Below are positions 184-51,434 of a DNA stretch of 64,000 bases, piece after piece (position 1 is the first letter of the stretch; every line of letters starts with the position of its first letter). The stretch spans positions 3,286,001-3,350,000 of the forward strand of contig JAWWNJ010000004.1 of NCBI GenBank assembly GCA_037176885.1, read 5' to 3'. The DNA comes from Favolaschia claudopus. Taxonomy: Eukaryota > Basidiomycota > Agaricomycetes > Agaricales > Mycenaceae. Below the pieces are notes generated by a model. It was given only the letters and a program-made list of their open reading frames with translations. It searched no databases and was not told where the DNA came from. Made by a program: the position numbers and the translations under genes.

Positions 184-3100
184 CTAGACATGGGGTTTGG
201 TTCTCTGTCTAATGAGCAACTTGACAATCTCATTATGTCCTCCTATCATTGCAGCATTGAATGCATTGCCATACTCTTTGTCTTTTCGGTCCGCATCAGC
301 TCCATGATTAAGCAAGACCTGAGCAACCTCATAGTGACCAAAACGGCATGCACCTGCCAATGCACTCCAAGATTCCTCAACCTGAGAGTTAACCTTTGCA
401 CCATGATCGAGGAGTAATTGCACAATCTCAAGTCGTCTGTGAATGGAGGCCAATAATAATGCAGGTCTTTTAGATGCATCTTGCAGCAAAACATCTGCTC
501 CATTCATAAGCAACATTTTGACTATGTCAGTTTTCCCCCTCGCTGCTGCAGTGTGAAGAGCAGATCCATATCGACCTCCTCGTATATTTACATTTGCCCC
601 CTTCTCAAGTAATAGTAGAGCAATATTCATATGACCGCCTGATGCCGCTGCTGCCAAAGCACTTCCGTATTCTCCACCTTGTTTGTTTAAGTCTGCGCCA
701 CTATTTACAAGAATATGAAAGAAACTGATATCTCCGTGATGAGCAGCTTTGATCAACATGGTGCCATAGACTGGAATGAAGATGTTGATGTTAGCACCCT
801 CATGAATGAGAAGATCCCTGACTTTCTCCTGGTTTGTGAGGAAAGCTGTTCCAAGTGGCCCATTATAATATCCACCTTTGGAATTTATATCTGCCCCATG
901 CTCAAGCAAACACTGAATGATTTCAATATGACCACGACATGTTGCAGCACCTAATGCAGTTCCATACCGCCCGCTATGCACCTCCACACTTGCATGATTG
1001 GCAATGAGAAGTTTGACAAGACTCTTATCTCCGTGGTATGCTGCTGTTGCGAGTGCAGTTCTAGCGTTGTTATGTTGTGGGAATGGTATATTGACATCAG
1101 CACCTTGTGCGATAAGAAATTGAGTTACAAGCTTATGACCATCAGTCATCGCTGCATATAAGGCTGAGTCGTTTTGAGCATTACAGATGTTTATATCTGC
1201 ACCATATGCAAGCAAGATTTGTACAAGATCCATATTGCCTCTACGAGCTGCTATTGCCAATGCAGGTCCATGTTGTCCAGATAACTCATTTGTATTTGCA
1301 CCATAGTCAAGCAGTAATTTGACAGTTTCAATGTTCTCTGCATAAACTGCTGCTTGTAACGCACTACCAAATGGTTTCCCTTGTACACTGACATGGGCAC
1401 CATTTCCAATGAGTAGTTCAATCATTTGGAGGTGACCATAGTATGAAGCAACAATAATAACTGGATTCTGTGGGTCATTCCAGAAATGTGTCTCCTTGAT
1501 CAGAAACTTGACAATTTCAAGAAGATTAGCAGCTACTGCTACCCAGATAGGTGATGATTCTGAGGGCCAGTCACGATAATTCCAAGGTGGTGAATTCCAC
1601 AAAAGTCGCAGTTTTTTCTTCCACTGATGTGCTTGGCAACAGAAGTGAAGCAGCTTGGTCCTGAGATCAACTTCAGGCTGTCCTTGAGCATGACCTAGAC
1701 AGTGTTGAGCATAATTCAGCAGAGGCGGAGGGCAGAATGAGATTGATGTTCGAAGAATTGAATCAAAGTCCAAGAAAGTGAGTAGTGTACTTGTTATCTG
1801 TGTTTGAGCATCTGGTAGTCTTCGTAGATAGAAGTTATCCAGATACTCTTGTAATGTATGATGAACCAGCTGCACAAGTAAACATTGTGTGTCAATCACT
1901 ACAAGTCCCGCACAAACAGAGAGAATGATCTGTATGTCTAGCATATTATCTTCATCTAGAGCTCTTGTACCAGGCTCGATTGCAAGGGCCATTGTGAGTT
2001 CAGAGACTGTCAATGGTCGTTTTGCATTGGCTACCCACATGATTGTTGTAACAGCCGTAGTCCGATCTTCTTTGTTTTGAGCATCTATACGTTGCATCAC
2101 AGTGTCATAACTATCATGAATGTCTTTGGGGAGGACATTGAGAGCTTCTCTGACAGCCTTGATGGTATTCTTTGTGCTGAGGGATGCTATATGAAGTTTA
2201 GCCAGAAGAAACCTAGTTAGAAAATGATCAAGTACAGCCTAGCAGTAGCCTGTTCACTCACATTCCATCTATGTTCATAGCAATTGTTGTATGAATCTCC
2301 TGCAGTAAATGGGGCTGTCTTTGAACATGCCTAGCAAGTCGGGGAGACAAGCCGACTTGTGTGTCAATGTATTGTCGGATATCTTCTGGTGATGCACAGA
2401 CATTGAGAGTTATTGCCTTTGGCGATCCTAAAAGCTCCGGAGATAAATGCGGTCTTGAAGTGATTAGCAAGTTCACATTGCTTCCCAGTTGTCCCAGATG
2501 GTGGAGAAAAATGAGCTGCTGTCCTTCTGGATATTCATCAATTGCGTCAACAAGAATGAATACCCTTGATAGCTTCGAAATGGTAGCCCTGAGGAGGTCT
2601 GAAACTTCTTCCAGGGAAGGTGAAGTATTTCTCTCAAAGTGCCGTTGATATAATTTCTTGGCTATTAGACCGATTTCTTTGTCCAGCACAAGCTGTCTCC
2701 AAATAGCTGCCAGGAGATTGCTAGGGGATTGCTGGTCTGCCTCTTTGTGGTTCAAATAGGCACAAGCTACCTGAGAATCCTGGGTGGTCACTTCACGACA
2801 AAGATAATCCACAACCATAGAGCTAAGTGTTTCAGATATAAATGTGGCCAATAACTCAAATAAATATCTTACACAAGTACAGTTTTTCCTGCTCCAGCTG
2901 ATACTCAATGTCAGACAAAGCAGTACTAGATTTTGATTGGACGTACGGATGCCTGTACACCAGAGAATTTGACCCCTCATAGCCTTCCATATTTGAAACT
3001 GTGGTTCCACAAGTAGCCAGCCTCCAGTTCCAGGTACACGAGAACGTGAAATGTCTGAATGTCTGATGAAGAAATTGATCGGAGAAATCCATTGGATTAT

Positions 3101-10720: not shown

Positions 10721-12326
10721 ATGGAATCTTCGACTCCGAGGCCTAGCAATCCCTTCGGCTTCACCTCTCTCCTCCTTCCAAGCGCCACCGAAATCGCGGA
10801 CCTCCGACGGCTCACACGTTCCGGAATTTCACCCCAAGATCCTTCCAAGTTAGCAGAAGCTATTCAAGCAGTCACTCCGGAAATCGAGCGCTATGGCGCG
10901 GAGATCGAAAAGTTTCAGACAGAGCTCAATCGTCTCGTCACGGAACGCAGCTCGCTCATATTATACGCGGGACTCGGTCGCAGCGCGTTGGCTCCGGTGC
11001 AAAGAATCCCTGACGAGATGCTCGTTGAGATTTTTGGATGGTGCTCCCCATCGTCGTTGTATTGGGTGTCTGACGAGATCGACCGTATCTGCTTCCGTCA
11101 TCTCCGTGACCTGGCAAAGGTGAGCCGTAGTTTTCCGTTTTACCTCCTCAGTCGAAAAACTGACCTCAGTAATAATAAATATACAGGTTTGCTCCCGTTG
11201 GCACCACATTGTGATGAACACGCCCAAACTGTGGTCCAGAATCACTGTCAACACACATCTTTGGAGAAAGGATTCTTCCCCTTCTCCGAGCCAGCTGCTG
11301 CTCTTCCTCGAGGATGCTCTGCGCCGGGGAGGCAGCTACCCATTATCTTTGGACGTCGACCCAGACCATGGGGACGATAGTCTCCATGTCCTTGAACTGT
11401 TCAGCAGGCATGCGCATAGATGGAAGGACGTTGCGATTCGCCAATACTGCCACAATCACATTCTCTCGAAACTCAGCGGCAATCTGGGCCGATTGGAAAA
11501 ACTGGAGCTCGGGGGCAATTGGTCAGAGTTCGAATGTTTCCAGAACGCACCTCGTCTCCGGGAATTCGATTTTTGCGGGACGCCATCGGGCCTGCCCAAG
11601 ATACCATGGGGCCAAATACAAAAAGGCTCATTCAAAAAAGACAGACTCGCATCGTCGGTCTCGTCTGTGATCTCGTTCCTTAAACTGCTCACCAATGTTA
11701 ATACATTCACGCTCTCCCTTGACCTACGGGGTCAAAACCCTCCGGACTCGGATTCGATGGTGTCTTGGGACGTTCGACACCTCGATATGCCGCTCTCTGT
11801 TGATCACTCTCTGCCCATATCCCGTCTCATGGACAGTTTAACCCTCCCCTTCTTAACATCGCTCTCCATCCATCCCACACACGTCACCGGTCCTCCTCCT
11901 GCCTGGAGCTCCCCACATTTCGTCAATCTTGCCACGCGATCCGGGTTCGGCCAGAATCTCCGCTCCGTCTTCATACACGTTTGGGCCACGGACGACGAGC
12001 TGCTGCAATGCCTCGAAGCGCTAGACAGTCTCGAGGAATTGCAGGTCGTGGACTGTTGCTCCGATGTCGGCGAACCTGTGCAGACCGTCATCACGGACAA
12101 CTTCCTGCAGAAGCTTTCACGGGTAAGTTCCGATTCTGCTACGACTGGATCCACCACTCTCGTACCCGAACTCCGGCGTCTCACCTTACACTCTGTTTTG
12201 GACTTTTCCAACGCGTCGTTGCGCGACTTGTTGAAGTCGCGGGGCGAAGAATACAGATATGTTCGAGGTAAGGTTGTGGTCGATGGCGAGGCCAGTGAGC
12301 GACCTGTCACGCGAGGAATGGAATGA
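10721..12326 (+). CDS. F-box protein A (expanded family)
   Basis: Two exons, 10721-11119 and 11187-12326, with a 67-nt GT-AG intron at the position shared by all paralogues here. About 512 residues. The order is a variable start, a coiled-coil (EIERYGAEIEKFQTELNRL), an F-box-like core (ALAPVQRIPDEMLVEIFGWC), the junction motif VCSRWHHIVMNTPKLW, and a leucine-rich C-terminal region. F-box proteins recruit substrates to SCF ubiquitin ligases through Skp1; the target is unknown. The family C-terminus (NLWW...RREVS...GGLLF) is missing from this frame but partly readable one frame over after about 12262 (EEWNEIVWVVSEGGSNFEYG). A late frameshift has therefore replaced the last 20-odd residues. The gene may still function. 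Confidence 0.8.
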
Positions 12327-12903
12327 GATTGTTTGGGTGGTGTCGGAGGGCGGGTCGAATTTTGAGTATGGTCAATCCGACGGTTATCGACAATTACAAT
12401 AGGAATCACAATTGTGGAGAGGGAATAGAACATGCCATTAATTTTCACTTTAACCCGGAAGTTGAGAATGGTGAACTTGTGAGAAGGAAATTACAGTAAT
12501 TTCCGACAAAGCTAGGATTCAAACTTACCTCGAACCCAGGGAAACCATGGCATACGCTTGGCTAAGTTTCCCCATCCATCCTAAATTATATGACCTGAAT
12601 TCATCGTCTCCTTTCGACCGTCCGAATGGAGCCTGATGATTCCTCTTGCCTCCTAGACCCGGTAGGAAGACGATGGCTCACATAAACGAAGATTATTGTC
12701 GACGGCGAATGCAGGCTTCAAAACTTCGCCTCTGCCTAGAAATTCCCGACTGTACTCATTACCTTCCTGAAGTCAACATTCTCGAAATTTGGGTTTTCCT
12801 CCTGAACCAGGTAATCGTTCATCGCAATTTCCCTCAACACAGCAAAAGCAAGTCCTTATACTAATTAGCTCCGGATTGAAAATCTATTTAATCGATGTAC
12901 GCG
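12327..12903. other. Convergent spacer between F-box genes A and B
   Basis: Tail-to-tail intergenic region holding the 3' ends of A (+) and B (-). A 72-codon frame at 12646-12864 has no recognisable features. Nothing else is seen. Confidence 0.4.
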
Positions 12904-14580
12904 CTAGTGAACAGCGGGATCATATTTGCCCGTATTGAAAATAATGCCACCATCCACTACAAGCTGATTTATCCTCTCCATCGCTTCGATCGAAAACTCC
13001 CGCTTCCGTGGCTCAAACCACCAAAGATTCGATTCGAAGGCACTCGTGCCGTCAAATGTTTGGGTGCGTGAAGCCAACAGATCTGCGTAGACCGAATCGC
13101 TGAAGTCAAGACCGCAGCGAAGACTCAGAAGTTGTAGCTTGGGAACCACGGAGGCGATGTTCCGCACAAAGAAGAGTCCTCGCAGAAAGTTGTCGGTGAT
13201 AGTGGCGGGGGACGAGCGGCATTCTGTAACGAATAGTCGTTCCAGCTTGGGCAGCGCTCGAAGACATCGTAATAATTCCTCGTCTGACACAACAGCGTGG
13301 ATAGCCAGCCATGTGAGGCAGGAATCAAACCCTGAGCGCTCAACCAAGGCCAAAAAATGGGTGGATGACCAAATCGGAGGAGAGCCCCCGTCGAACGGGC
13401 ATATATCAAGTGATTCGAGGTTGGGGAGGGTCAGGGTGTCGAATAAATGTGCGACGACTGAAAAATCGCCTTCCGATGTCAACAATAGGAAAAAAAGTTC
13501 CTTGACCGCGGAGGTGGCTTGAACATCCCAAGGCTCGTGCGGAAAATCTTCCCGAACATCAAGATAGAATGTGCAAACTGCGAGGTTCGGAGCCAGATTG
13601 AGAACGGAGACAGGCGAATAAGAAGGACTGGGGAAGTCATGAGATACGGAGTTGGTGATGGTTGTTATCTGCGTCCAAGGTAGTAGCGGCAGATCGTCAA
13701 CATATCCGCTGAATGCGAGGGACGTTAAACGAGGGGCGTTTGTGAAAGCTGGTACCTGACCCCACGAACTCACGCTCAAATCGAGCATCTCCAGCTGATC
13801 TAAATTGATCATAGCGGAGAATAGCGCTACGCAGGGTGCGCCCGAGGAAGCTACGAAGACATCCTTCCATCTGTGCGCATGCCGCAAAAGAGATTCGACG
13901 ACGATAACATCACAAGTGTCACTGTCTGATATGCCAACATGAAGGATGAGGGGGTAATTTCGTCCGCGCGCCAGAGAAGATTCGAGTAGATCAGCACGTC
14001 TTGCGTCTTCTTCAGGATAATCCTTCCAAGCGTCTGTATCGACGGCGATGTTGGACCACAATTTTGGAGTTTCCATCGCAACTCGATACCAACGCGTGCA
14101 GACCTTCGAATCGTTAGACGAGGAAATCACACTTGAATCAAAACCGGAATTAAGACTCGCCTGGCCCAACTGTAGGAGATAGCGACGAGCCAGCTGATCT
14201 ACCTCGTCGTCTGCGGAGATTTCGTTGAAGATCACATACAGATTTTCAGGAAAACAAAGGTCGAAGATGTTGGCTAAAAGCTCATTTGGGAGTCTTTGAA
14301 CAGGAGACAAAACACTGCGACAGAAATCAGTGTACGAAGCGAGCATGCTCCGTTCTGAAGTGAGTCGGCTTAGTGCTGCTTGAAGTCTTTCAATCTCGAC
14401 GTCGTAGCGGCCGAGTTCAGCTGGAGCTGCTGAGATCGTGGTCCGTAGTTTGGAGAGCTGTGATTGTATTGGGAAAACGCCGGAACGTGCTAACTCTTTG
14501 ATATTCGCCACGTCGATGGGGGTTGGGACGAAGGCAGAGGAGAACCCAGTGACCTGTCCACCAACTTGAAGTGGGTTCAT
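12904..14580 (-). CDS. F-box protein B, with a probable GC-AG intron
   Basis: One open frame of 558 codons from ATG 14580. Removing the family's conserved intron (14160-14104) leaves 539 residues. It has the family layout: ELARSGVFP start, coiled-coil (ELGRYDVEIERLQAALSRL), F-box core (VLSPVQRLPNELLANIFDLC), VCTRWYRVAMETPKLW junction, leucine-rich repeats, and C-terminus NLWWFEPRKREFS ending GKYDPAVH. The intron is 57 nt, in frame and free of stops. Its donor is GCGAGT instead of GT, with acceptor TCGAAG. The message may be spliced through a GC-AG site or read through with 19 extra residues. It is closest in sequence to pseudogene E and gene F. Role by family: substrate receptor of an SCF ubiquitin ligase. 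Confidence 0.88.
   Translation of the reverse strand: MNPLQVGGQVTGFSSAFVPTPIDVANIKELARSGVFPIQSQLSKLRTTISAAPAELGRYDVEIERLQAALSRLTSERSMLASYTDFCRSVLSPVQRLPNELLANIFDLCFPENLYVIFNEISADDEVDQLARRYLLQLGQASLNSGFDSSVISSSNDSKVCTRWYRVAMETPKLWSNIAVDTDAWKDYPEEDARRADLLESSLARGRNYPLILHVGISDSDTCDVIVVESLLRHAHRWKDVFVASSGAPCVALFSAMINLDQLEMLDLSVSSWGQVPAFTNAPRLTSLAFSGYVDDLPLLPWTQITTITNSVSHDFPSPSYSPVSVLNLAPNLAVCTFYLDVREDFPHEPWDVQATSAVKELFFLLLTSEGDFSVVAHLFDTLTLPNLESLDICPFDGGSPPIWSSTHFLALVERSGFDSCLTWLAIHAVVSDEELLRCLRALPKLERLFVTECRSSPATITDNFLRGLFFVRNIASVVPKLQLLSLRCGLDFSDSVYADLLASRTQTFDGTSAFESNLWWFEPRKREFSIEAMERINQLVVDGGIIFNTGKYDPAVH
14104..14160 (-). other. Probable GC-AG intron of F-box gene B
   Basis: Lies exactly where paralogues A, C, E, F and H have GT-AG introns, between the codons for LGQ and VCTRW. 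The donor reads CAG/GCGAGT on the minus strand and the acceptor GATTCGAAG. Length 57, no in-frame stop. Confidence 0.65.
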
Positions 14581-15509: not shown

Positions 15510-17241
15510 ATGAGCTGCAGTTTCACCTCCACACACTTGCCGACTGCTACTCAGCTCGCGGCCGTCCGAGAACTTTCGCGCCTTGGTAGTTCAGAACCAA
15601 CAGCCCTGCAAGCTATTGTAGCTGCTATCGTACTAGATCTCGAACGCTACGACACAGAGATCCAAAATCTTCCCATTCAACGAGAAATAAACAGACTCAT
15701 CTCGGAACGTATCACCCTTTTGTCCTACCTAGGATTCTGCCGCAGCGCGCTCTCCCCAGTACACAAACTCCCCAACGAGCTGCTCGTGTCTATCTTTGCG
15801 TGGTGCTTCCCGAGCCAATTGTACAGTATTTTGGGCAAGAGGACGCCTGAAGAAGAGGTAGATTGCGTGTCGCATCGCTATCTCCGCGACTTATCGCGAG
15901 TAAGCCTCCGGTGTACTCCTCTTTTTCTCCTATAACTTGTTCATATGAAATCAATAGGTATGCTATCGTTGGTATCACATCGCAATGGAGACTCCACAAC
16001 TCTGGTCGACCATCGTTGTCGATGCACGCCTGTGGAATAGATCTCACATCTCCGTCGCGGCTCTCCTTCTTCTGCTCGAAGCCTCACTGCGCCGCGGTCG
16101 CGAGCACCCTTTACACTTGGAGGTCTACGCCGTCGCGCAGCACCACCACACCATTTTCGAATTACTAAGCCAATACGCACGGCGCTGGAAGACCGCTATA
16201 ATCTGGGGGAAGGACGTGGATGACGGGCTCCGCGCGTGCGCAGGGAACCTCGGTCAGCTGGAAAAACTTTCGCTTGCCGGGAAGTGGAAAGACGTGGAGA
16301 CGTTCCAGACTGCGCCTCGGCTGCGGGAGCTCACATACCGTGGCGCAGTCGATAAACTCCCCAAGATGCCTTGGAAGCAGATCCAGCGATGCGCATATAT
16401 CGACCACTTCGCCGGCGACGTCTCATTATCGTCCCGGCTCTCCTTCTTTCGCGTCCTCCCCAACCTAGCCGACGCGAAATTTGCCCTTGATCTCAAAGAC
16501 TCTTCCATCGACGAGCCCTTGGATATCACCATCACTTCCGACGTCCGACACATCCAATTCGACCTGGCTACTACTACAACCAGTTCCGCAACAGCTTGTC
16601 GATTCTTCGACAGTTTGACATTCCCTTCCCTGAAATCATTCTCGCTATATCCACCGCGTTTCAGAAATCCGCCCGTCTGGAGCTCACCCCATTTCCTCCG
16701 CCTCGCCGCTCGTTCCGCTTTCGAAAAACACCTCGTACGTCTGGTGATCCATGCAGTTATCACCGACACCGAGCTCTTGCGATGTCTTGAGGTCCTCCCT
16801 AAACTGAAGTTCTTATCCGTTACGGATTGTACTTCTTCGTCTGAGGCCTCCCAGCCGGTCATCACAGACACATTTTTGCAGAAACTCACCTACGTATCAG
16901 GAACAGGCACACCCTCAATGATTGTGCCGCACCTCGAGTCACTCACCCTCAAAACTGTTCTCGACTTCGCCGACGCGTCATACGTCGATTTGATTGACTC
17001 GCGGGCAGGGAAGGATGATCGGGACACGTTCACAGCGAATCTTTGGTGGGTGGAGCGGAGGAGGCGGGAGGTGTCTGTTGATGCGTTGGACAAGATTGTG
17101 CAATTAACGAGAGAAGGAGGATTGCTTTTCAAGGCGGGAGAACGGAACGTAAGGGTTTTTCTGTCTGCTCCGTACAGTATTATGAGATCTCTGATCGTCA
17201 AAATTATAGTGAATCTGGAGCCTCAGAGTGAGATACAATGA
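15510..17241 (+). CDS. F-box protein C (expanded family)
   Basis: Exons 15510-15899 and 15958-17241, 58-nt intron GTAAGC...AATAG, 557 residues. The ATG at 15510 is chosen because the family N-terminus (THLPTATQLAAVRELSRLG) begins just after it. Coiled-coil, F-box core (ALSPVHKLPNELLVSIFAWC), then VCYRWYHIAMETPQLW across the splice site. The leucine-rich part is followed by the conserved tail NLWWVERRRREVSVDALDKI. The last 30-odd residues (RVFLSAPYS... to EIQ) run past the usual end of the family, so the stop may have shifted downstream. Intact otherwise. Inferred role: SCF substrate receptor. Confidence 0.88.
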
Positions 17242-20853: not shown

Positions 20854-21261
20854 TTAATCGTGTATTGCAGGTTCATATTTGCCCGACTTGAACGTTAGCT
20901 CTCCTTCGGATACCAACTGAGCGATCCTCTCCAACGCTTCAGGTGAGATCTCGCGCTGTTGCCCCGCAAACCACCACAGATTGGCTGTAAAAGCATTCTT
21001 GGCATCCCTATCCTGTACCCGCGAGGCCAAAAGATTCGCATAAATCGAATCGGTGAAATTGAGACCGCAGCGCAGGCTAAGAAACCGGAGTTTGGGCATG
21101 AGAGGGGTGCTGCCGGGAGCCAATACAAGTCCACGCAGAAAGGTGTCAGTGACGATCGGCTGTACAACCGCTTCGTCACTCGAGGATGTGCAGCAGTCCG
21201 TGATGAACAATTTGTCCAGCTGCGACAGTACTCGAAGACAGCGCAGCAATTCTACATCTGT

Positions 21262-21270
21262 CACTACTGC
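21262..21270. repeat. Target-site duplication, left copy (6.4-kb element)
   Basis: CACTACTGC, identical to 27704-27712. One copy belongs to the F-box reading frame (Ala-Val-Val), which continues from one flank to the other when one copy is removed. Confidence 0.9.
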
Positions 21271-21281
21271 TAGTCTCGTGT

Positions 21282-21336
21282 ACAAGACTTTAGATACTTT
21301 TTTGAAGACAGTCGTTCAAACGTATATAAAGTCTTG
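21282..21336. repeat. Inverted repeat near the left end of the 6.4-kb element
   Basis: AAGACTTTAGATAC at the start and GTATATAAAGTCTT at the end are inverted copies with one mismatch, separated by about 25 bases. They could form a hairpin within 70 bp of the element terminus; the downstream arm also contains TATATAAA, a possible TATA box for the helicase gene. Confidence 0.6.
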
Positions 21337-21545
21337 GATCTATGATGGGGGTCCGTGGAAGCGTCATTTGATGGGCGGAGTTTCATTCGGCATGATAACG
21401 GCGCCCGTTATGGAAGGTCATTCGGTCACATGCTCACACCATCATTCCTTCAACGCGTCGCGCTCGCGCTGGAAATTCGCTCGTTCTCTTTATCCAGGCC
21501 GCGTTTTCTGTTCGCCCGAATCAAAATTAAACTACATACAACCTA

Positions 21546-23511
21546 ATGAACCAACCTACACCCTCATTCTGCTCCAATCACCCAGTAAATTCCCGCGAAT
21601 GGATAGAAGAGTTGCTACGCATAAGGGCCAAAGTCCGCGAAGTCTATCCTCATCAGCTCGAGTTGGCAATGCACATCAACGCCGGAAAGGATGTAGTCTG
21701 TGTTGCCGGGACGAGCAAGGGCAAAACTCTTGTTCTTCAGTCCGGACCAATTGCAGCCCAGGCCCGCGGTGAGAAGGGCATCGCGCTGATGATCGTGCCA
21801 ACCAAAGTTCTCGTGGAACAGCAGGTGTGTGATGACTACTCTCATTTTTACATACTGAATAGTAACGACGCGTTTTTAGGCTGATGTTGCGTCCCGCCGC
21901 GGGCTTCGTGCTCTTGCTATTAATCAAGATACGGTCCGCGACGCGCGACTTGCGGGACGCGATTTATTCAAAGAGCTCGGGGCTGGGGACGATGTTCGCA
22001 TGGCTATTATGACGCCGAGCATGCTGAATGAAACGGACATGAAGTCTCTCCTGCACCGGCCCCAATTTGTCAACTCTGTGCGCTGGTTGTCAATCGACGA
22101 AGCCCATCTAGTTGTCCAGGAGGGCATCTTCAAAAACGGCTATGCCTCGCTGCTCAATCTACGAGTTCGGCTCAACAGCTCGGTGGTCTGGGTTGCCGCT
22201 ACTGCAACTGCTACGCGTGCAGAGGCACTGTCCATGGCCGTTGCTCTCGGCTTTCATTCAGACACCTACATCAATGCACGGTATTCCGTGGATCGCCCCA
22301 ATCTCAAGTTCATCCCACGCGTATATCAGCATCCCACTAGCAATGGCCAATTTTTGGATCTCTCGTTCATTGTTCCATTCGGCTTGGTCGATGCAAAAGG
22401 CATTCCCGAAACCATGATCTTTGCCGACTACATCAAACGCGGAAACGAAATTGAGAGGTTTCTTGACAGCCTTCTCCCTGCCGGGCTTCCAGATCGCGAT
22501 AAAATCATACGCACCTACAACAGTCTCATGCCTTTCGAGGAACGACAACAGCTTGTCGAGGATTTCAAAGCCGGTCATGTCCGAGTCCTGATTGTCACGG
22601 ACACAGCTACATACGGATTTGATGCCCCCAATGTCCGTCTTGCTGTTCTTGCCGACCTTCCAAATTCAAAAGCCGACAAAGACCAAAAGATGGGTCGTGC
22701 GGGAAGAGACGGCCTTCCCGCTACCGTTGTTGCATTCGCACCTCAATGGATGATCGAGCCCTCGGGCGGGGTTGATGCCGCAAATCCTAAACACCTCACG
22801 GACATGGAGAAGCGAAAACAACTGCCGCAGGCTATGGTTGAATGGTATAATCCTACAGCCAATAAATGCTGTCGAGCTGTTACAATGGATTACAACGGTG
22901 AACCATTTATTCAAAGGCCGGGCTGCTGTGTTCCTATCTGTGACCCCAACGGCTCTGCATCGCATCTTGCAGAAGTAGCGAAGTGGGAAAAGTTTTTTCT
23001 TGCCAGGGAAGAGGCATCCGAGTCTGCTCGAATGCGCTCCGATAGAACCTTCCGTGCTCTGGAGAAGCCGATGAAGGAATCGCTGGAACAGATGCTTGAT
23101 CAATGGCGACACCGCATCTGGAACCAAATTCGTCCTTCCCGTGAAGAGCCATGCGAATACTTTTTTCCCCGGCATATTCTCAACGCAGTTGTCAACAAAG
23201 CGCATATTTGCACCTCCCTCGAGCGACTGCAAGCGGTTGCAACCGGCTGGGACTATGCAAACACCCACGGCGAACAGCTTCTTCGGTATTTGAGGGAGGT
23301 TCTAACCGGGTTCAACCAGATCTTCAAAGAACGCGCTGGGCCCGAATCATCTTCGGAGACGGAAGACCAAGAAGAAAATAGCAGCAGTATTGCGCTGCTC
23401 AAAAATACAACCTCGGCAGTGTTGCAGTCGTTCTGCCGTGATTTCAACTTAGCCCGAAGCGGGAACAAAAGCGTCTTGGTGCAACGTCTCACACAATATT
23501 TTATTTCGTGA
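21546..23511 (+). CDS. RecQ-like superfamily 2 helicase with C-terminal SAP motif
   Basis: Exons 21546-21824 and 21880-23511 (55-nt intron), 636 residues. Helicase motifs in order: Walker A VAGTSKGKTLV, TPSMLNE, DEAH box (LSIDEAHLV), motif III (AATATATRAEAL), a RecQ-style IVTDTATYGFDAPNVR, and motif VI KMGRAGRDG. The last about 35 residues (LQSFCRDFNLARSGNKSVLV and on) match a SAP DNA-binding motif. A region after the helicase core has several Cys residues (NKCCRAVTM; GCCVPICD) that could bind zinc. It is about half the length of cellular RecQ helicases and lacks an RQC/HRDC pair that I can see. It is converging on the DUF6589 gene, inside a flanked mobile element, so a role in DNA unwinding during transposition is the natural inference. 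Confidence 0.9.
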
Positions 23512-23793
23512 GTCTTCAATTACGATTATTATGTTCCAAGGAACTGTATTCCTTCTTAGTACATCTAATTCCTTCCCAACTACGCAAGAGATCCAAGATA
23601 GAAAAGCCAACCTAATGGCCGTTGATGAACTGGGACCTGTTTTGGGAGACAAGACCAACATTTCAACGCCTCCGCCTTCCCCCAAGAAGGACAAGAAGCG
23701 GAAGCGAAAGCGAACACAAGAGAATCAAAACTAATTCATTTACTTCGAATAATCTTTACATTCATCTGTTTATACTACGTTCGCCTGTTTATA
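23512..23793. other. Convergent spacer inside the mobile element
   Basis: 282 bp between the stop codons of the helicase and DUF6589 genes. A small plus-strand frame (23531-23734) ends in a lysine/arginine tail (KKDKKRKRKR) reminiscent of a nuclear localisation signal. It could be an extra helicase exon, but no phase-consistent splice was established. Confidence 0.35.
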
Positions 23794-26700
23794 TTACATT
23801 GCCGGTGTTCCGGTAATAAATTCATTGACGTCCATAACTCCCTCGATCATCGTAGCCGGGCACGGTGGCTCCTCAACGTCCTCCAAATCAAGGTCCTCGG
23901 TGTGAACAGGCTTGCCGGACATAGTCCGCTTCAAGAACGTCTCCAACGTGCCGCTGCTCAAGACTGAAACTCCTTCAGCAAATTCGTTTGGCGCCAGATA
24001 AGGCTGGCAGCGCCCCGATTCCCATTCGAGGATATGTTGATCACGAAAATGTGCACCAAGGCGGTTAATGTCGTCAACCGCCACGACCTTGCGATGTTTT
24101 TGGCCATTTTTCTTCAGCCCAAAGAGTCCTGGAAAAAGTTCACGGATTTTGCTGATTCCTGTGATGTTCAGCCCAACTGCCTCGGAGAGGTGTTTGCCAT
24201 CGAAGTCATGGCTCTTGGAGTTGAAAAGAGCTTTGATCCAAAAGTTGAAATGCTCTTGCAGCAAGTCCAACTCGAGCCAGTATCCGATCCGTCCAGTCGG
24301 ATTCACGAGGTAATTCTCGAGAACTGTCATTCGTAAGTCATCGGACCACTCGTAAAGGAAATTGCAAGCGAGTTCGAGAAGCTCATTCCCATAGTTTGTT
24401 GATCCAGCGCCCCAAAATGAAAATCTCAGGAGCTTGTGCCGCATATAATCAGCGCAGAATTCAACCGTGAGAAAACTGAATCAAACATACTTTAATCACC
24501 TCGAAAACCCGTCCAATGTCACCTTCCGCTATTGCTGAGCAGAGCTCAAGGTACCAAAAAGTAACTCTCATGAAGTGGCACAGATTGACCATGACCTGAT
24601 CACCGCTCGAGAAATTACGCTGCGGTTGCCCAGAAGCTTTGGCCCGGGATCTCTTCTTTTTTTTTGCCGGTGGAGGTTTTGCCGATGATCCCAAAGGCGC
24701 GAGGGAAGGCATAGAGTCTGTGAATGTAGTAAGTATGCAAAGCTTTATTTGTATAGCCCAGAAATTACCCATCTCATCCTCGTCGGATTCAACATTTGTT
24801 CCGGAAGTCCAAGCTGGGCCATAAATTTTCGTATCGCGAGACGAGTGCCCTAGCGCGTCCTCTCCTGCGGCTATACACATATACCGATCATAAACAATGC
24901 CGGCAAGTTCCCTTAGGTCCTCGAAGGTGCACTCGTTGAAGCGGCCGTCGGGTTCAAAATATTTGGAAACCGCATCTGTAAGTTTGATGTCTGTTCCGTA
25001 AATCACACCGGTTTGTTGTTGGCAGATTAAACTGTAGATAGAGGTTTAATACTGGCTTGTAAGGCAAGAATAAAACAACTCGCTGTAGTGCTTGAAGAAC
25101 AACTGCATCAAATCGGTCTTCCAAAATGTGATGTGCGGGATAAAAGTCGCATTTTTTAGGGTTGAACTTGCCGCGGTCCAACAGTTCGCAATCGTGATGA
25201 AGACCGAAGATGTCTTTACCAAGATCAGGGTGCCAATGGAGACGAAAGATAGCCTTCTGCCAATTCCACTTCAGGTGCCAGAGTTGAATTACAGGTAAAG
25301 CCCATTCATGACGGGTGAAGGGAGTAAAGAATTTTCGTGTGTATTCCTTGAGTTTTCGGATTCGGTCGATGCTAAGCTGATCTCCACAGATGATGACTAG
25401 CCAGCGGTAAAGGGAGCTCGGAACGATCGACAGCTGGCCGATGATGAGATTGTGCAGGACCGAGGCAGCGCCGACAGTGGTTGATTCGTCAATACTTGTG
25501 ACACGGGTCGATCGGATATCGCTTTTACGAAGCTTGAGACGATGCTTGCTAAATTCGGATTTGAAGATGTCCTCAACGGCGGCGCGATGTCCCGAAAGCG
25601 CAGGAATATATTTAAGCCATACCCGCAGGACCTGGCCGATTCCAACACCCCGGATGTGTTTCTGATCGATGTCGTCTCTGAGTTGCTTCACAGTAAGTGC
25701 ACCTCGCCTCCCTTCCGCTTTTGCTTTGATTACCGGTTCGGAAAGAAGAGCATTGGGCCGCACATCGACGAGTCCAATGATGGTTGAAGCTGTCCCACTT
25801 TTAACTTCATCCTTGTGACCAAGTGCGGCTCTCCATGCTCGCTTCATTTTATTGACATTATCAAAAAGAACCAGGAATTGAGGACCGGTGAGCTCGTTGA
25901 ATGCACCAATGAGACGAAGTTGTTGAGCGGAATCTGCACCTAAAAGATGCAGCTGAGCCAATATCATTCGGTACGAGACCGAGAGTCCGAGCCGACACAA
26001 TATGGAGATAAGCTCTCGATTCGCATTGCATGTGAACGCGAAGAGGCCGATTAAAATGGGGAGCATAAGGGCGAACCGATTTCGAAACGACAGGAGTACA
26101 AGAATAAAAACTGTGACTGCCTGGAAGCGGTTAGATGGAAAGTAGAATACAAACCGAAATGCTTCACCTGCCAGGGATCGCGGCGTCCAACCTTGTCCGA
26201 GAGAAGAGGATGCTCCGGCAGGTCTTGAGAATCGGGTGAAGGACTCGGATCATCTTCATCATCTTCAGATTCACCCGGCTCGGTGGGTTCACTGGAAGCT
26301 GGTGGAGGGTTTGGCGTGGAATCACGAGCAGATTCGTCATCCGCCATCTCGTCAATGAATGGCAGGATCTCATTCAAAGAGCCGGATAGCTCTTCGCGTT
26401 CTTCGGCCTCGGCGGCTACTAGGACTTCCAATTTTTTTCGGGCATTCTGATTCACCGCGATTGTTGTGAACAGCGTAAAAATTGCGGGAGCATTCAGCGC
26501 AACAATTTCTTGACTCTGCGACATCGACCACCCCAGTAGCAAGTCCCAGGTCAAAGGTGGGTCTTTAGGACGATGCATGAACCCGTGGTGAGGTTGGAGG
26601 AGCTGTTTTGTTTCCTTCTCAAATCTCTCGATCATGCGCTGAAGCGACCAATTCACCATTGCGTTATACGTCGTGTTGGGAGATGAAATCAAGCCCAATG

Positions 26701-27553
26701 GCTTCGCGCGAATCGATGGAGGAAGGGCATATCTTGGGCGTGTAAAATTGGGCTCGACAGCGATCCCGTCAACAAATTCTTGTGACTTCTTGTGGCGGAA
26801 GATCAAGTCGAGAATTGCTACAGGATGGTTGGTGTGGGTACGTTCCTTTGCCTGTAGAAAGGAAGCGAGGGTGTGGTAGACAGTTGGATGTTTGTTATAT
26901 GTAGCATCGTTGTCAAATGCTTGAGCTAGAAACGCGCCGAAAGTCGGAAAGCCGGCCATCTTGATAGCACGAAAAACGACGAGTAGACGGTCCTCCGGCC
27001 CAATCTTAAGACCCAAAGGCCAACGAAACTTGTTGCGCTGACGCCCTCCAACCTCTGTATTGGGGATGATGCCGTTGAAGATATTTGACGCGAAATCGAT
27101 TGCCATTTCATTTCGAGGATCGACAGCTTCGACAGCTTCTGTCTGCATTGAAGCGTCTGCCATCTCACGGGGTGTTGGACGGGGGAGCAGTGGAACAGGG
27201 TAATAGATTGACTGCGGTGTATGTCCAGTCACAAAAGGCCCGTGCGCGGGGCTGGTGTAAACTAACGAAGCCCACTCCGATGGGACTCGGACCTCATGTG
27301 CAGCGAAAGGAATCCGTCCTGGAACAGGTGTGACGGGTGTCTGACTATTATCTGTTACTTCTGAATCAGTATAACTCCAGTATCCAGAAGATATTGTCGC
27401 ATACCAAGAGAAGATGTAGCTATTTAGTATTTCTTCGGATCGCTCTGAACGCGAATCGCGAGGCATCGCGACTCTGAAAGACGGTTTTAAGCTATAAGGA
27501 GTGCTGGGTTGTTCATCCGCGTCGAATCTTGCTTTCGGTGGGCCGGAAGGCAT
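23794..27553 (-). CDS. DUF6589 domain protein, candidate transposase
   Basis: Five exons close in phase: 27553-26168, 26120-25084, 25031-24769, 24717-24491, 24432-23794; 1,183 residues. The second intron needs a GC-AG donor (GCGAGT), which alone restores the frame. The N-terminal third is proline/acidic-rich with a fold-like segment (EDRLLVVFRAIKMAGFPTFG). The DUF6589 region begins near RDPWQ, followed by PILIGLFAFTCNANRELI, LGLSVSY, QFLVLFDNVNKMKR, LVIICGDQLSIDRIRKLK, FLYEWSDDL and ENYLVNPTGRIGYW. The conserved acidic positions FDN and GDQ are spaced as in RNase H-fold nucleases/transposases, which is my inference. DUF6589 proteins are numerous in agaricomycetes and have no established function that I know of. 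The start at ATG 27553 is 150 bp inside the element end. Confidence 0.85.
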
Positions 27554-27703
27554 CTCAAAGACCGCAGAACGATACAGAGGCAAGAGATCACTTAAATCAA
27601 GAGGGTGTTTCCATATTAAGGCGACCTTCTAAATGGAGCGGAATTTCAAACTCCGCTGATCTGTGTCGCTCCTCCACGGGACCCCTTAACAAATCCGTGA
27701 CTA

Positions 27704-27712
27704 CACTACTGC
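27704..27712. repeat. Target-site duplication, right copy (6.4-kb element)
   Basis: CACTACTGC, identical to 21262-21270. Confidence 0.9.
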
Positions 27713-27761
27713 ATGGACAGCAAGATATGTGAGACGGGCATCAAACCCGGAGCGTTCGGCC

Positions 27762-28395
27762 GAGGAATGGCCAGAAGTGTGGGAGTGGGACTCGGGTAAA
27801 CCCCGGATAAAGGCCGATAGTGGGACTCGGATGCTCGGATGTTGAGATTCGAGCTCTGATAGTGGGACTCGGCTTGCCGGCACATCAGTAAATATGATCT
27901 GAATCATTTGCACGTAATTAGCATAAAAAACACGCCCCGACGCTTTAAAATATTCCTGGCTCCACGCAGTGGGCCCCCGCGGCGAGCGGCAGCACCACGC
28001 AGTGGGCCCAGCGGCGAGCGACGGCACCACGCAGTGGGCCTAGCGGCGAGCGTCAAGGGGGGTCCGCGGGGGTCTCCCCCGCGCTACATGAATTGAATTT
28101 ACGGAGTAAACAGCAAAAAAAACTCGAGTTAGTGGGTAGAATTAATCAAATATGCCGTCAGGCCAAAGGAGGGGGGGTCTGGGGGGAACCACGTTCCCCC
28201 CAGGAAATATATTAGTACAGAAACTACTGTAGAAAGACATTAAACAAATAAAATACACTCCTCGGCTCTTAATGCCGGGGATTGATGAACATTTGATTTG
28301 CTGATCGCCACTTGATTGCAGTTGATGCAGAACCGATCAATAGTGGGACTCGCTTAAATAGCCGAGTCCCACTCCCACACTTCTGGCATATACTC
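27762..28395. mobile_element. 634-bp miniature inverted-repeat element, MULE-like by duplication length
   Basis: Flanked by the 9-bp duplication CGTTCGGCC (27753-27761 and 28396-28404), which falls in the F-box frame of gene E. The terminal 34 bases are inverted repeats with four mismatches, all in the outer eight bases. The inner 26 are perfect, including GTGTGGGAGTGGGACTCGG. The GTGGGACTCGG core recurs inside both ends (27788, about 27821, about 27862, 28341). No coding capacity. A 9-bp duplication with long inverted ends is typical of Mutator-like elements, so the family call is by analogy only. The ends do not match those of the neighbouring 6.4-kb element. Confidence 0.85.
27962..28053 (+). 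repeat. Three tandem copies of a ~31-bp repeat inside the miniature element
   Basis: Units start with CCACGCAGTGGGCC and contain GCGGCGAGCG; they begin at 27962, about 27995 and about 28027. Followed by G- and C-runs (about 28058-28080 and 28170-28203) that can pair with themselves as hairpins. Confidence 0.75.
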
Positions 28396-29606
28396 CGTTC
28401 GGCCAGAGCCAAGAAATGGTTTGAAGACCACATTGGGGGGTGAAGATCGTAGACATCCAGAAAGTCGAGGTTCGGAAGAGTGAGCGAGTCGAATACGTGA
28501 CCCATAGCAGAATCATTGTCGGGCAACTCGATGTAAAGTCTTCGCATGTGGGAGGTAATATGCGAATTCGACGAGCCGGGAGGAATGTCATCCTCGAAAT
28601 TGAGATAGAGTGTGCATCGTACGAGGTTGATCGCTCGACGGAGAGCGGCGAGCATCGATTACATTGGATTTGGAATGCGCAACGAGTCGAAAGTAAGGGA
28701 TTCGATCTGCGTCCACGGTAACATTGGCAGATCATCGATGTGACCGGCAAATGCTAGCTCCTTCAGAGACGGTGCGTTTCGGAAAGCGGACATATTCCCC
28801 CACAACTTGACATTCAGAGCCAGCCCCACAAGACAATCTAGATCCCTTGTCCCGGCTGACAGGAATTCACTTGGACTGTCCCTTGAGCACAGTTGGAGAT
28901 ACTTCCACCTGTGCTCGTGCTGGAGAAGCGACTTGAGGACCAGGTCGCCAGAACTAGAATTAGATACCCTGAGATTCAAGTTCAGTAGATGTTCCTGACT
29001 TCGTGTCAAGGAAGATTCTAGCAAATTCAAGAGAGTATTGGAGTCTGTTAGACATCCATCCCAGAGATCAGTGTGGACCGACATCGTAGACCACAATCTG
29101 GGAGTTTCCATTGCAACTCGATGCCAACGAGAACAGACCTGAGAAGAAAGCATGTATGAAGTTTTGACAAGGAATAATCCGCTACCAAAACTTACCTGTG
29201 CCAGCTGTAGAAGATATCGACAAGCAAGGCGATCAACTTCACTCGTTCCGGTGCCGGCGCTTGAAACCGAGTACAATTCGATGGGAAAGCACAGATCGAA
29301 TATGTCCGCCAGGAGCTCATTCGGAAGTTTTTGAACAGGAGACAAGACGCTGCGACAAAGGCCAGTGTACGAATCAAGCGCGCTGCGCTCGGAAACGAGC
29401 CGATCGAGATCTTTTTGAAGCTTGGTGATTTCGGTATCGTAGCGCTGGAGTTGTGCTGGGGCAGAACTTATTGTTCTGCACAGTTTGGCTAGCCCCGGAG
29501 CATCAGGTAAAGCGCCAAATCGAGCGAGTTCCCGGAGATCTTCAACTTCGGCGGAAGTCGGGAGGAAGGAGGACGTGATTCTGTTTTCGTCGTGGCGAAC
29601 AGCCAT

Positions 29607-30516
29607 GTCAACCTGCAGGAATTGGTTTGATGGTGAATGATTGTGTCTGAAAGCTGGAGGCGGTACCTGGAATACAAAAAAATCACAGGTGATGGAAGAA
29701 GATAAAAGAGGCGGGCTCCCGACGACTTCAAGACGACTTCCCGACGTTCCGAACTTTTCACGTTCGTTGTTGACTTGGGGAGAGATTGAGCGGAAATATG
29801 AAGAACAGACGAGTTGTTGAGCTCAGATGAGAGGCAGAATATCGACCACAAAGCAGACGCTGTCCTCTGACTATCGTTGTTGGATAATTGGCCGTAGAGG
29901 TTGAGGGCTAAGAGGGACCGGCAATCCGGCAACGTCCAAACCGGAGACCGCCAGACAAACAAGGTTTTTCACACGCTCCCAACACGCTCCCATTTTGGGC
30001 TCCATCAGCCCATCAGAATCCCATCGCTGCCCCCCACCTCCACGCTCAGGCCCATCGTCACTGTCCACGATTGGCACGGCGTTCTCTGCTCATTGAGGGT
30101 CGTTCACTGAATCTCTAGGGCTCTACTCATCTTACCACAATGCTCGCTGGTTCGGAGCCCTTGAATGAAAACTTAAAAATTTGCAAGACTCTGACTCATC
30201 GGATGCGACTCGTCCGAGCGTGGGCGCTAGTCTACTCAGGGACAACTACTGGTTTACCGCCGCAGATCAACGGCTCTCAGCTTCAGAAGGTCGATGGCTC
30301 AAATCTCAAGCGGGCTATCCAATTCGAGACTACGATTCTGCGTCTTCAAGATACTGGATATGCTTCAAAGGCTTATCTACATGTTTTGGACGGACGACAA
30401 TGTGGGTTTGTTATATTCTTTTGCATATGGTCAATGCCAATGTTCGGGCTCACAGCTCGATTGGGCTGTAATTGGTGTACGCTGAAAACGATATTTTGAA
30501 TCCATGAAAAGAGCAT
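29607..30516. other. Intergenic between pseudogene E and the MYND gene
   Basis: Promoter side of E and 3' flank of the MYND gene. Contains shared motif copy 5. Short plus-strand frames at 30140-30499 show no recognisable domain. Confidence 0.4.
29918..29979 (-). repeat. Shared upstream motif, copy 5 (before pseudogene E, inverted)
   Basis: On the minus strand it reads GGAGCGTGTGAAAA, TTGTTTGTCTGG, TCTCCGGTTTGGAC, then GCCGGATTGCCGG. It is longer than the other copies by an insertion of about 10 bases. It lies 312-373 bp upstream of the ATG of E, in the opposite orientation relative to its gene compared with the other copies. Confidence 0.5.
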
Positions 30517-33348: not shown

Positions 33349-35122
33349 TTACAACATTCCATCCCCATCATGGATCGCACGAAGGTATGCCCCCGAGCAG
33401 AAAACAAATCGCCCTTCCATTTTCGCTACCAACCTCGCAATATTCTCTACCAGTTGCTCAGACACCTCGCGTCTCCGAGTCGCGTACCACCACAAATTGG
33501 ATTGAAACTTATCTCGATCTCGAGCGAGGGTTCGTGATTGAACATCTCGAGCTTGTGTTCGTGACGCCAAAACATCAAAATAAACGGCGTCCGTGAAGCT
33601 GAGCGCACAGCGGATGCTCAAGAAGGCGAGATTGGGGACAAGGTCCGGAGTGGAGCCATGAAGTTGGAGTACTAGTCCGCGCAGGAAAGTGTCGGTGACC
33701 GCTGCCGGGGTGCAGTCTCGAATTACCAGCTTTTCGAGCAGAGGCACAACGCCGAGGCAGCGCAGGAGGTCGACATCCGTCACTTGTACATGGAGCGCGA
33801 GGGATGTCAAAGAAGATTCAAGTTGATGGAACCCGGAACGATAAGCCAAATTCAAGAACGCGTCGGCGGACCAAAGAGGGGGGAATACGCCGCCGTCGTC
33901 TGGATGGATGTGGAGCACGTTCAGGTGGGGGAGAGTGAGCGAATCCAGGAAACGACCGAGGATAGGGTCGTTGCCGGTCGAGGTCATCAGTTGGATGGAT
34001 AGCTTCTGCGTCGGGGAGGTGATGGTGTGGGTACCCCAGGGCTCGTCATCGTCATCGTCATCGGGATCATAGCCTTGTAGATAGAGATAGAGGTGGCACG
34101 TCGTCAAGTTGTTCGCTGCGCGCAGAAGAGAGAGCGCTGAGTGAACTGGATCCCCAGCTTTAAGGGAGTCGTAGTTGACAGTCTTTATCTGAGACCATGG
34201 TAAGAGAGGGAGATCCGTGAAGTCGCGCTCAAAGGTGAGCTCTGTCAAACAGCGCGCGTTTCGAAACGCCTTTACGCGCTCCCATGCTACGTCGAGAGAA
34301 AGCGAGACGAGGCGATCCAGCTTCAAGTTTTTAATCCGGTGAAAAGTCGTATTCTGTCCCCGGCTCGACCAGAAATCAACGTCCCTCCATCTGTGCGCAT
34401 GGCGGGAAAGCAGCGACAAGACCTGATCGCAGCGCATCGTATCGGAGATGCCCATCTCAATCGTCAAAGGATAATCCTTTCCTCGGATGAGCAAGGACTC
34501 CAGCAACTTCGTAAGGATTTCTGCATGGAGTAAGGAACGATCCCAGACATCTGAATGGATTATTAACGTGGACCAGAGTTGCGGAGTCCCAATTGCAACG
34601 CAGTACCAGCGGAAGCAGACCTTCGAATCATTTCGCGATCAGTAAGTAACAGAAGACGTGCAGAATGAATCGTAAACATCCTACATACCTGAGCCAACTC
34701 TTGGAGGTCGCGACGAGCAAAAAGATGCATCTGGTCTTCTAGTGTGTTGGTACCAACCCCGGGGATTAGCTTTTCGTGCAAGCAGAGATCGAAGATCTCC
34801 CCCAGCAGCTCGTTAGGAAGCTTCTGCGCTGGAGATAATACGCTTTGACAAAAGGCAGCGTATGACGCGAGTATTTCGCGTTCCAGAGTAAGACGGCTTA
34901 GTTCCTGTTCTACTAATCGATTCTGTTCTGCAACCTTCAAGTTCTCGATCTCCGCATCGTAGCGCTCGAGGTCGGCTGGAGCACCAGAAATGACGGCGCG
35001 AATTCGGCTAGGTCGGCAGGTAAACTCCCACAGCGGGCGAGCTGTTGGATGTCGACTAGATCGGCTGGAGTTGGAGAGAGAGTTGAGGTGAAACTACGAG
35101 CAGGCAGACTGTCGCTCGCCAT
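33349..35122 (-). pseudogene. F-box gene F with a single-base frameshift near the N-terminus
   Basis: ATG at 35122, exon 1 to 34689, 68-nt GT-AG intron (34688-34621), exon 2 34620-33349. The N-terminal frame runs to about LPADLAEF and then leaves frame near 34997-35005. The conserved coiled-coil (APADLERYDAEIENLK) and F-box core (VLSPAQKLPNELLGEIFDLC) continue one frame over. Exon 1 is 434 bases, exactly one short of phase 0, as expected for a one-base deletion. Everything downstream (VCFRWYCVAIGTPQLW, leucine-rich part, NLWWYATRRREVS, end AIHDGDGML) is intact. Either a very young pseudogene, a sequencing or assembly error, or a gene using an internal start at about 34940. Confidence 0.78.
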
Positions 35123-41619: not shown

Positions 41620-43313
41620 ATGACCTCCACCGTTGATTGCTCAGGCTGCCCATGCCACTCCAGCTATACCTCCAGTCTTCTCTCAACTGAGGCTGAAATA
41701 TCCCGCATGAAGGCTTTCTCGCGGTTTGGCATCTTGCCACCCCAACCATCTGTCTTGAAAGCCAAGATTTTGGCCGTTCCCGCAGAACTCGAGCGGTACG
41801 ACGCAAAACTACGGAAGCTCGAAAAAGAAATGCTTCGAATGGCGTCGGAACGCCACTCCCTAGCTTCCTATGCCGCGAGCTGTCGCAGCGCTCTGGCTCC
41901 TATTCACAGGCTACCCAACGAAATATTGGCGAACATCTTTGCTTTGTGCATTCCCCAGGAGCTATACAACGTCTACGACCTTACAGAGTCAACTCCGGAG
42001 CAGGAAGTGGATTGCATATCTCATCGACATCTGCTGCAGTTAGCCCAGGTCAGTCAATCCGATTATGCCACCTCAATAAACATGCTATCGGAATTTCGCA
42101 GGTATGCGCTCGGTGGCATCGCATTGCGATGGGTACACCACAGCTGTGGTCATCGATAGCTGTTCGCAGCGACCTATGGAGCGAATGTGGCATATCCCCA
42201 GAAACTCTGCTCGCTCTTGTGGAAGCTGCTTTGGACCGGGGACAAAACTGTCCACTTACTTTGATAATCCGTGCTTCTGAACACGTCGAGTCGATCTTAG
42301 AACTGGCTACTAGACACGCACACAGATGGCGGTCCGTTAATCTGAATCTTGCCCACGGTGATCGCGGTGGCCATCTCTCCAATCTTGCCAACAAGCTTGA
42401 CCAGCTGACCGAGCTGTATTTCGATGTCGCCGATCTCGGAGAGGTGGATGTTTTTTTCGAGGCGCCTCGTTTGAAGACGATAGTGTTTCTCGGTAGCATC
42501 GCTCCTCCGCCGAAAATACCCTGGGCACAAATAGAGTTTTGTACACACGTCAGCGACCAAACTACCAATCCCCCATATTCCCCACTCAATCTTCTCCTTC
42601 TCACACCAAAAATGGAGAGTTTCAATTTCCGTCTCGACCTTCGCGACTGCCATCCTGACGAGCATTGGAATGTCGACATATCTTCAGACTTGCGGCGCAT
42701 AGACTTTGAAATCGCCGCGGATACAGTTGACGCCGTTGGACAACTGTTCGATTCTCTCAAACTCCCTTGCTTGGAGACCTTGACGGTTACTCCTTTTTGG
42801 GTGACGGAACCCCCGTTGTGGCACACAGAGCGTTTTCTGAGCCTCGCCAGCCGCTCTGGTTTCTCCCGCCATCTCACCTTTCTGGGGATACATGCCATTA
42901 TAACCGACACGGAGCTCCTGCGGTGCCTCCATGTACTGCCCATGCTGGAAATTCTTTCCATCGCAGATTACATCTCCGCCGGGGTGGGCAATTCCTCCCC
43001 CGTGATCACAGACATGCTGTTGCAAGCACTCACTTATCGAACGGATGCTCCGTCGCTTCTCAAGATTCCGCTCCTCAGATATGTGCACATAACATCGCAC
43101 CTCGACTTTTCTGATGCGGCTTTCGTCGAATTCATCGAGTCGCGTGTTGACCGGTTGTGGGACTTGGACACTGATGTGAGATTTCAAGCTCATCTCCAGT
43201 GGTATTCTCCGGCGAAACGTGAGATCTCAGAAGAGACGCGGGATAGATTGACAGAGATGGTGGAAGCGGGAGAGCTTTGCTTTCGCATATGTCAATATAA
43301 AGAACGCTCGTAA
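41620..43313 (+). CDS. F-box protein H (expanded family, duplication unit 1)
   Basis: Exons 41620-42048 and 42102-43313, 53-nt GT-AG intron, 546 residues, no disruption. The N-terminus MTSTVDCSGCPCHSSYTS is cysteine-rich and shared only with gene I. Then come EAEISRMKAFSRFGILPPQP, the coiled-coil (ELERYDAKLRKLEKEMLRM) and F-box core (ALAPIHRLPNEILANIFALC). The junction is VCARWHRIAMGTPQLW, followed by leucine-rich strands and the family tail (LQWYSPAKREISEETRDRL). With I it forms a third subgroup beside A/C and B/E/F. Its long CT/GA-rich leader is duplicated with it. Inferred role: SCF substrate receptor. Confidence 0.9.
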
Positions 43314-47858: not shown

Positions 47859-48818
47859 TAAATTATGGGCGGAGCATTCGCGGGTTAGCGGGGCACGGTG
47901 ACTCTGGATGCGCAATCTAGGTGAGGCATCACGTTATTTCTCTTTTTACCACTACCCATTTCTGTTTTCCAGTTATCTTTGCGGCCTCCCCTCCGTCATC
48001 GGACCTTACACTTTCACCGCGCCTTCTACTCTTGTCGTTTTTATTTGTTTGTGCTGGATTACCATTGTCAATTGTACTCGTGTTCTCACGATTACTACCT
48101 TTTTCTCCTTAACTACCACATCCTCGTCATGAACTCCATCGTTGATTGCTCAGGCTGCCCATGCCACCTCCACTTTACCTCCGGTCTTCTCCCAACTGAC
48201 GCCGAAATATCCCGCATGAAGGATTTCTTGCGGTTTGGCATCTTGCCACCCCAACCATCTGTCTTGAAAGCCAAGATTTCTGCTGTTCCCGCAGAACTCG
48301 AGCGGTACGACGCAAAAATACGGCAGCTCGAAACAGAAATGCCTCGCATGGCGTCGGAACGCCACTCGCTAGCTTCCTATGCCGCGAGCTGTCGCAGTGC
48401 TCTGGCTCCCATTCACCGACTACCCAACGAATTATTGGCGGACATCTTTGCTTGGTGCTTTCCCCACGAGCTATTTGACGTGATCGACTCTAGAGGCATA
48501 TATGCGCCCGGTGGCATCGCCTTGCAATGGGTACCCCGCGACCGTGGTCAACGATCACTATTCGCAGTTACGTATGGAGCGAATGTAACATATCCCCAGA
48601 CGTTCTGGTCACTCTGGTGGCAGCTGCCTTGGACCGGGGACAAAATTGTCCACTGACACTGCGCATCTGTGGTTCTCAACACCTCGAATCGATCTTCGAT
48701 CTGACGACTAGACACGCACACAGATGGCAATGCCTTGATGTAGACCTTGGCCCCGATTGTGGTCTCATTGATCATCTCTCCAATGTCGCGGGCAATCTTG
48801 ACCGGCTTACGAAGCTAT

Positions 48819-51426: not shown

Positions 51427-51434
51427 ATTTCGAT
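51427..51434. repeat. Target-site duplication, right copy (2.6-kb insertion)
   Basis: ATTTCGAT, identical to 48819-48826. Confidence 0.85.

Follow-up and report, generated by a model that had tools for sequence, protein, structure and literature searches.

A 64,000-nucleotide stretch of the Favolaschia claudopus genome (contig JAWWNJ010000004.1, positions 3,286,001 to 3,350,000; hereafter the window) holds a 6,433-bp element that interrupts an F-box gene and consists of two convergent genes, one encoding a protein of the DUF6589 family (PF20231) and the other a RecQ-like helicase. This element is very probably an autonomous cut-and-paste DNA transposon in which the DUF6589 protein acts as a DDE transposase with the helicase as its partner, and its closest known kin would be the AcademH lineage or a near relative of it. 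The evidence comes from the edges of the insertion, from acidic residues conserved across the DUF6589 family, from the predicted fold of the protein and from the recurrence of the two genes together in other genomes.

Boundaries of the element and the empty site

The element, its ends and the host gene that it interrupts lie as follows.

21271-27703: whole element, 6,433 bp, bounded on the basis of edge repeats, termini and empty-site alignments
21262-21270: left copy of the 9-bp target-site duplication CACTACTGC
27704-27712: right copy of the 9-bp target-site duplication CACTACTGC
21271-21278, plus strand: left terminus TAGTCTCG
27696-27703, minus strand: right terminus TAGTCACG
21283-21336: imperfect palindrome immediately inward of the left terminus, its arms at 21283-21301 and 21318-21336 being 89% complementary
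21330-21453, plus strand: left subterminal stretch, forming a long, gapped and offset inverted repeat with 27592-27702
27592-27702, minus strand: right subterminal stretch, partner of 21330-21453
20854-21270, minus strand: 3' part of the interrupted host F-box gene, which joins 27713-27761 and then 28405 onwards at empty sites

A sequence-only reading of the window had described a perfect 9-bp duplication at both edges and short inverted termini, and both are present: CACTACTGC flanks the element on either side, and the two termini match at 7 of 8 positions. We compared the gene-free zones around the edges (20900-21545 and 27554-28200) with 2,000 Markov-resampled zone pairs. The real zones contain three 9-bp repeat pairs against a mean of 1.58 in the resampled zones, so the repeat by itself carries little weight. 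One of the three real pairs also has inverted termini matching at 7 of 8 positions, and a 9-bp repeat joined to inverted termini with at least 7 of 8 matches arose in 2 of the 2,000 resampled pairs. The inverted termini reach past 8 nt, imperfectly and with a 58-nt offset on the left; the alignment of the subterminal stretches scores 60.5, a value that 2 of 1,000 shuffles equalled or exceeded, the highest at 69.5, and when the terminal 8 nt are left out 3 of 1,000 shuffles reach the score. Since the right end aligns with the left only from 21330 inward, the left end has about 58 extra bases, and these enclose the imperfect palindrome, whose folding has a z-score of -3.48 and was equalled by 1 shuffle among 200. 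Copies of the termini with up to one mismatch showed no excess in the window (8 matches versus 10.5 expected), and the 8 include both element ends and one further exact match at 30316-30332.

The interrupted gene, in which Pfam detects an F-box domain, carries a second insertion of 634 bp at 27762-28395. It has its own 9-bp duplication CGTTCGGCC (27753-27761 and 28396-28404) and longer inverted ends with a 26-nt perfect stretch GCCAGAAGTGTGGGAGTGGGACTCGG; its termini (GAG...CTC) are unlike those of the main element and it is too short to encode a transposase. The F-box frame had been said to continue across the empty site, which is borne out, with the addition that the presence of this second insertion means that the frame closes fully only once both are removed. 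After removal of 21271-27703 and 27762-28395, six tblastn alignments to F-box paralogs in the window span the insertion point, five of them crossing both junctions without interruption; the sixth, to 34626-33367, shows a gap of 3 residues between the junctions. The best of these, to 14457-12907, covers 524 columns at 50.6% identity and is gap-free across both junctions. An in-frame TAA at 28659-28661 (minus strand) suggests that the interrupted gene may have been in decay apart from the insertions. F-box paralogs and fragments are clustered around it on both strands (10844-12375, 12907-14457, 15639-17142, 33367-34994, 41767-43301, 48276-48742 and 51423-52265).

Gene content

21546-23734, plus strand: RecQ-like helicase gene, 693 amino acids (exons 21546-21824, 21880-23507, 23560-23734)
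23794-27553, minus strand: DUF6589 gene (predicted DDE transposase), 1183 amino acids (exons 27553-26168, 26120-25084, 25031-24769, 24717-24491, 24432-23794)

The earlier description of the element as two convergent genes agrees with the spliced models, whose stops are separated by 59 bp and which are backed by the F. claudopus records P0106 (helicase) and P0001 (DUF6589); open reading frames and a Pfam scan gave no third gene in the element. PF20231 matches three open stretches with E-values of 1.1e-47, 6.1e-19 and 6.8e-38 (163.1, 68.4 and 130.9 bits, all above the curated cut-off of 27), while P0001 and the DUF6589 protein share 98% identity over the region searched. The intron at 25083-25032 is of the GC-AG type (GCGAGT...CAG), and the P0001 residues are identical across it. 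With a canonical GT for intron 2 the frame reached only 552 to 843 amino acids, whereas GC-AG gave the full frame. The first exon of the model is uncertain near residues 40-65 because P0001 departs from it there.

The helicase model is the same as P0106 over 693 amino acids, and the RecQ-SAP helicase named in the sequence-only reading is confirmed in its DEAD (PF00270), Helicase_C (PF00271) and SAP domains; its C-terminal tail is basic and its best relatives among solved structures are RecQ helicases. As a description of the usual neighbour of DUF6589, the same name is right about the helicase, which recurs, and does not hold in general for SAP. That domain was seen in only 1 of the 10 related helicases scanned (P0108), where it scored just under the cut-off, and it is therefore no general part of the DUF6589-helicase pair. 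Precomputed domains place SAP on seven rows among the matches listed, the window-identical P0106 included.

Predicted fold and acidic residues of DUF6589

25860-25862, minus strand: codon of D549 (D529 in P0001), proposed as first acid; its FDN motif belongs to strand 524-535 in the model of P0001
25380-25382, minus strand: codon of D709 (D689 in P0001), proposed second acid, GDQ motif, directly after strand 684-688
24382-24384, minus strand: codon of E988 (E968 in P0001), proposed as third acid; the residue lies within NYGNELLEL, on helix 963-979, which follows the helical insertion

Structure prediction, which had been suggested as a check, yields an RNase H-like DDE transposase fold for DUF6589. 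The predicted models have the RNase H-like order of elements: one acid lies on the first strand, the second follows a later core strand and the third sits in the final helix. In fold searches made with these models the first 11 and first 19 rows were all transposases or RAG1. A BFVD fold search was without a match at E <= 0.001, and there was no sequence match for DUF6589 among solved chains. The aspartates of FDN and GDQ, put forward earlier as candidate catalytic residues, are nearly invariant (D549 in 84 of 85 rows, D709 in 85 of 85) and are joined by a later glutamate, E988 (86 of 86). The family alignment A2 took in 88 of the 105 DUF6589 matches. The predicted fold, these acids and the recurrent helicase partner make it well supported that DUF6589 is a putative transposase, the role that the sequence-only reading had assigned to it.

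Recurrence of the gene pair

All counts in this section are among the matches listed. Of 44 named helicase relatives, 23 share a contig (same species and size) with a DUF6589 match, against a chance expectation of 4.5 with assumed 30-Mb genomes or 2.6 with assumed 60-Mb genomes. These counts use 104 of 105 DUF6589 rows (P0058, which has no contig, was dropped) and 44 of 51 helicase rows (P0106 to P0156, less the unnamed P0140, P0146, P0147, P0150, P0153, P0154 and P0155). The pair is tightly linked in several cases, as adjacent locus tags (VNI00_016038/016039, QCA50_000615/000614 and PQX77_011585/011584) and a Wolfiporia contig of 5,997 bp carrying both genes indicate. Further, the protein distances of the two partners correlate, with r = 0.84 over 23 pairs, a value reached in 0 of 5,000 permutations when species kinship is ignored, and r = 0.85 over the 15 Mycenaceae pairs; the window's pair is included with its helicase entered as the identical P0106, and P0116 with P0029/P0030 is left out, its partner being ambiguous. 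These data support the helicase as a recurrent partner of DUF6589, as had been claimed.

Eight rows of the DUF6589 family come from F. claudopus. A protein search from divergent members gave 16 proteins, 15 of them listed with PF20231, and no bridge to animal Academ. No relative was confirmed in the collections of viral contigs and genome contigs searched, and a 120-base piece of the element had no match in the plasmid collection.

Proposed mechanism

We propose that the element entered the F-box gene of the F. claudopus genome by DDE transposition. The DUF6589 protein would have an RNase H core that carries D549, D709 and E988, the last of these preceded by a helical insertion like the one in Hermes. 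This protein would bind both ends; its triad would cleave the ends and connect them to target DNA across a 9-bp stagger, and filling of the gaps by the host would leave the CACTACTGC duplication. The helicase may serve to open DNA or to process it, whether at the element's ends or at the gapped product.

Relation to known transposon lineages

Within the Academ DNA transposons, the AcademH lineage is reportedly the subject of Kojima 2020, Mob DNA 11:15. Our comparison with it draws on individual passages of other papers. According to these, AcademH duplications are 9 or 10 bp long and those of AcademX 3 or 4, AcademH encodes a helicase, and the helicase or nuclease partner of Academ elements has been suggested to relate to duplication length (PMC10045372). 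In Basidiomycota, Ascomycota and Mucoromycota AcademH is described as low-copy, and the presence of DEAD and Helicase_C domains is attributed to AcademH, KolobokH or Helitron (PMC10799480). The majority of Academ copies in fungi reportedly carry domains including DEAD/DEAH and recQ_fam and end up annotated as host genes (PMC6416283). The present element fits AcademH in its 9-bp duplication, its DEAD/RecQ-type helicase and its basidiomycete host. On account of the duplication and the helicase we file it there, and by this comparison of published features rather than of transposase sequence it most likely belongs to AcademH or a close relative. The undescribed transposon class envisaged in the sequence-only reading is not supported, given that these passages already report AcademH elements with such a duplication and a helicase and fungal Academ copies with such domains. 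No nuclease profile, of the AcademX kind or any other, was found in six open stretches covering most of both genes.

Filing under KolobokH does not fit because Kolobok duplicates TTAA, against the 9 bp of CACTACTGC. The hAT duplication is 8 bp rather than 9 and hAT is not known to have a helicase partner, unlike this element; no hAT Pfam match and no sequence match to solved chains was obtained. The helical insertion proposed before the last acid of DUF6589 resembles that of Hermes. MuDR/MULE duplications are also about 9 bp long; a Pfam scan of six stretches at E <= 1 gave no MULE match. KolobokH is similar in that this fungal lineage, too, combines a RecQ helicase and a DDE transposase, but in the passages cited the helicase lies downstream of the transposase domain (PMC9587614). 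The same source gives a C/DxxH motif between the second and third acid for the group of Kolobok, hAT, P, MuDR and Dada (PMC9587614); DUF6589 has QxxH, a possible counterpart, at a place that fits by order of elements.

Alternative explanations

Two observations weigh against a DDE transposase that travels with a helicase. Among the matches listed, 80 of 104 DUF6589 rows are without a helicase row on the same contig, and the Foldseek scores are not significant by themselves, the acids having been placed by the order of elements and not by superposition.

The alternative that survives best is that DUF6589 elements form a separate DDE superfamily which has the RecQ helicase and the 9-bp duplication in common with AcademH by convergence. 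In the literature searched we found no paper joining DUF6589 or PF20231 to a transposon, the one match for PF20231 being a nanophotonics paper, and KolobokH, as described in the passages cited, also has a RecQ helicase (PMC9587614), so such a partner was gained more than once. However, the element agrees with what is reported of AcademH and fungal Academ in the length of its duplication, the type of its helicase and its occurrence in a fungus, and one lineage is simpler; we consider convergence possible but unlikely. Slightly more doubtful still is a version in which the family would be a DDE superfamily of its own in mushroom-forming fungi, outside Academ, with the RecQ helicase as an obligate co-traveller, a left end that is a terminal palindrome, and a helicase that would open a hairpin end in the reaction.

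It is very improbable that DUF6589 is an accessory RNase H-fold protein and that both genes are passengers moved by an enzyme acting in trans. Its activity is a prediction, and a transposase from another locus could be what recognises the ends, but no third gene was found in the element, both the predicted fold and the acids agree with a DDE transposase catalytic domain, and the pair recurs across genera. Finally, that both are ordinary host genes beside a chance repeat is scarcely credible: 9-bp pairs are not rare in these flanks (three real, mean 1.58 resampled), but just 2 of 2,000 resampled zone pairs combine one with inverted termini, the empty site matches F-box paralogs, and the DUF6589 family has at least eight F. 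claudopus rows among the matches listed.

Outside the element, the window also encodes an ankyrin-repeat protein with a GPIID winged-helix domain (187-2238, minus strand).

Implications

The window protein is a member by sequence of PF20231, which Pfam names as a family of unknown function, and the transposase role proposed here would give that family a likely function. A bounded element with both genes open offers a system for testing the role of the helicase in DDE transposition. If the proposal is true, many entries for 'DUF6589 domain-containing proteins' from mushroom genomes would stand for transposase genes, which call for masking, and not for host genes.
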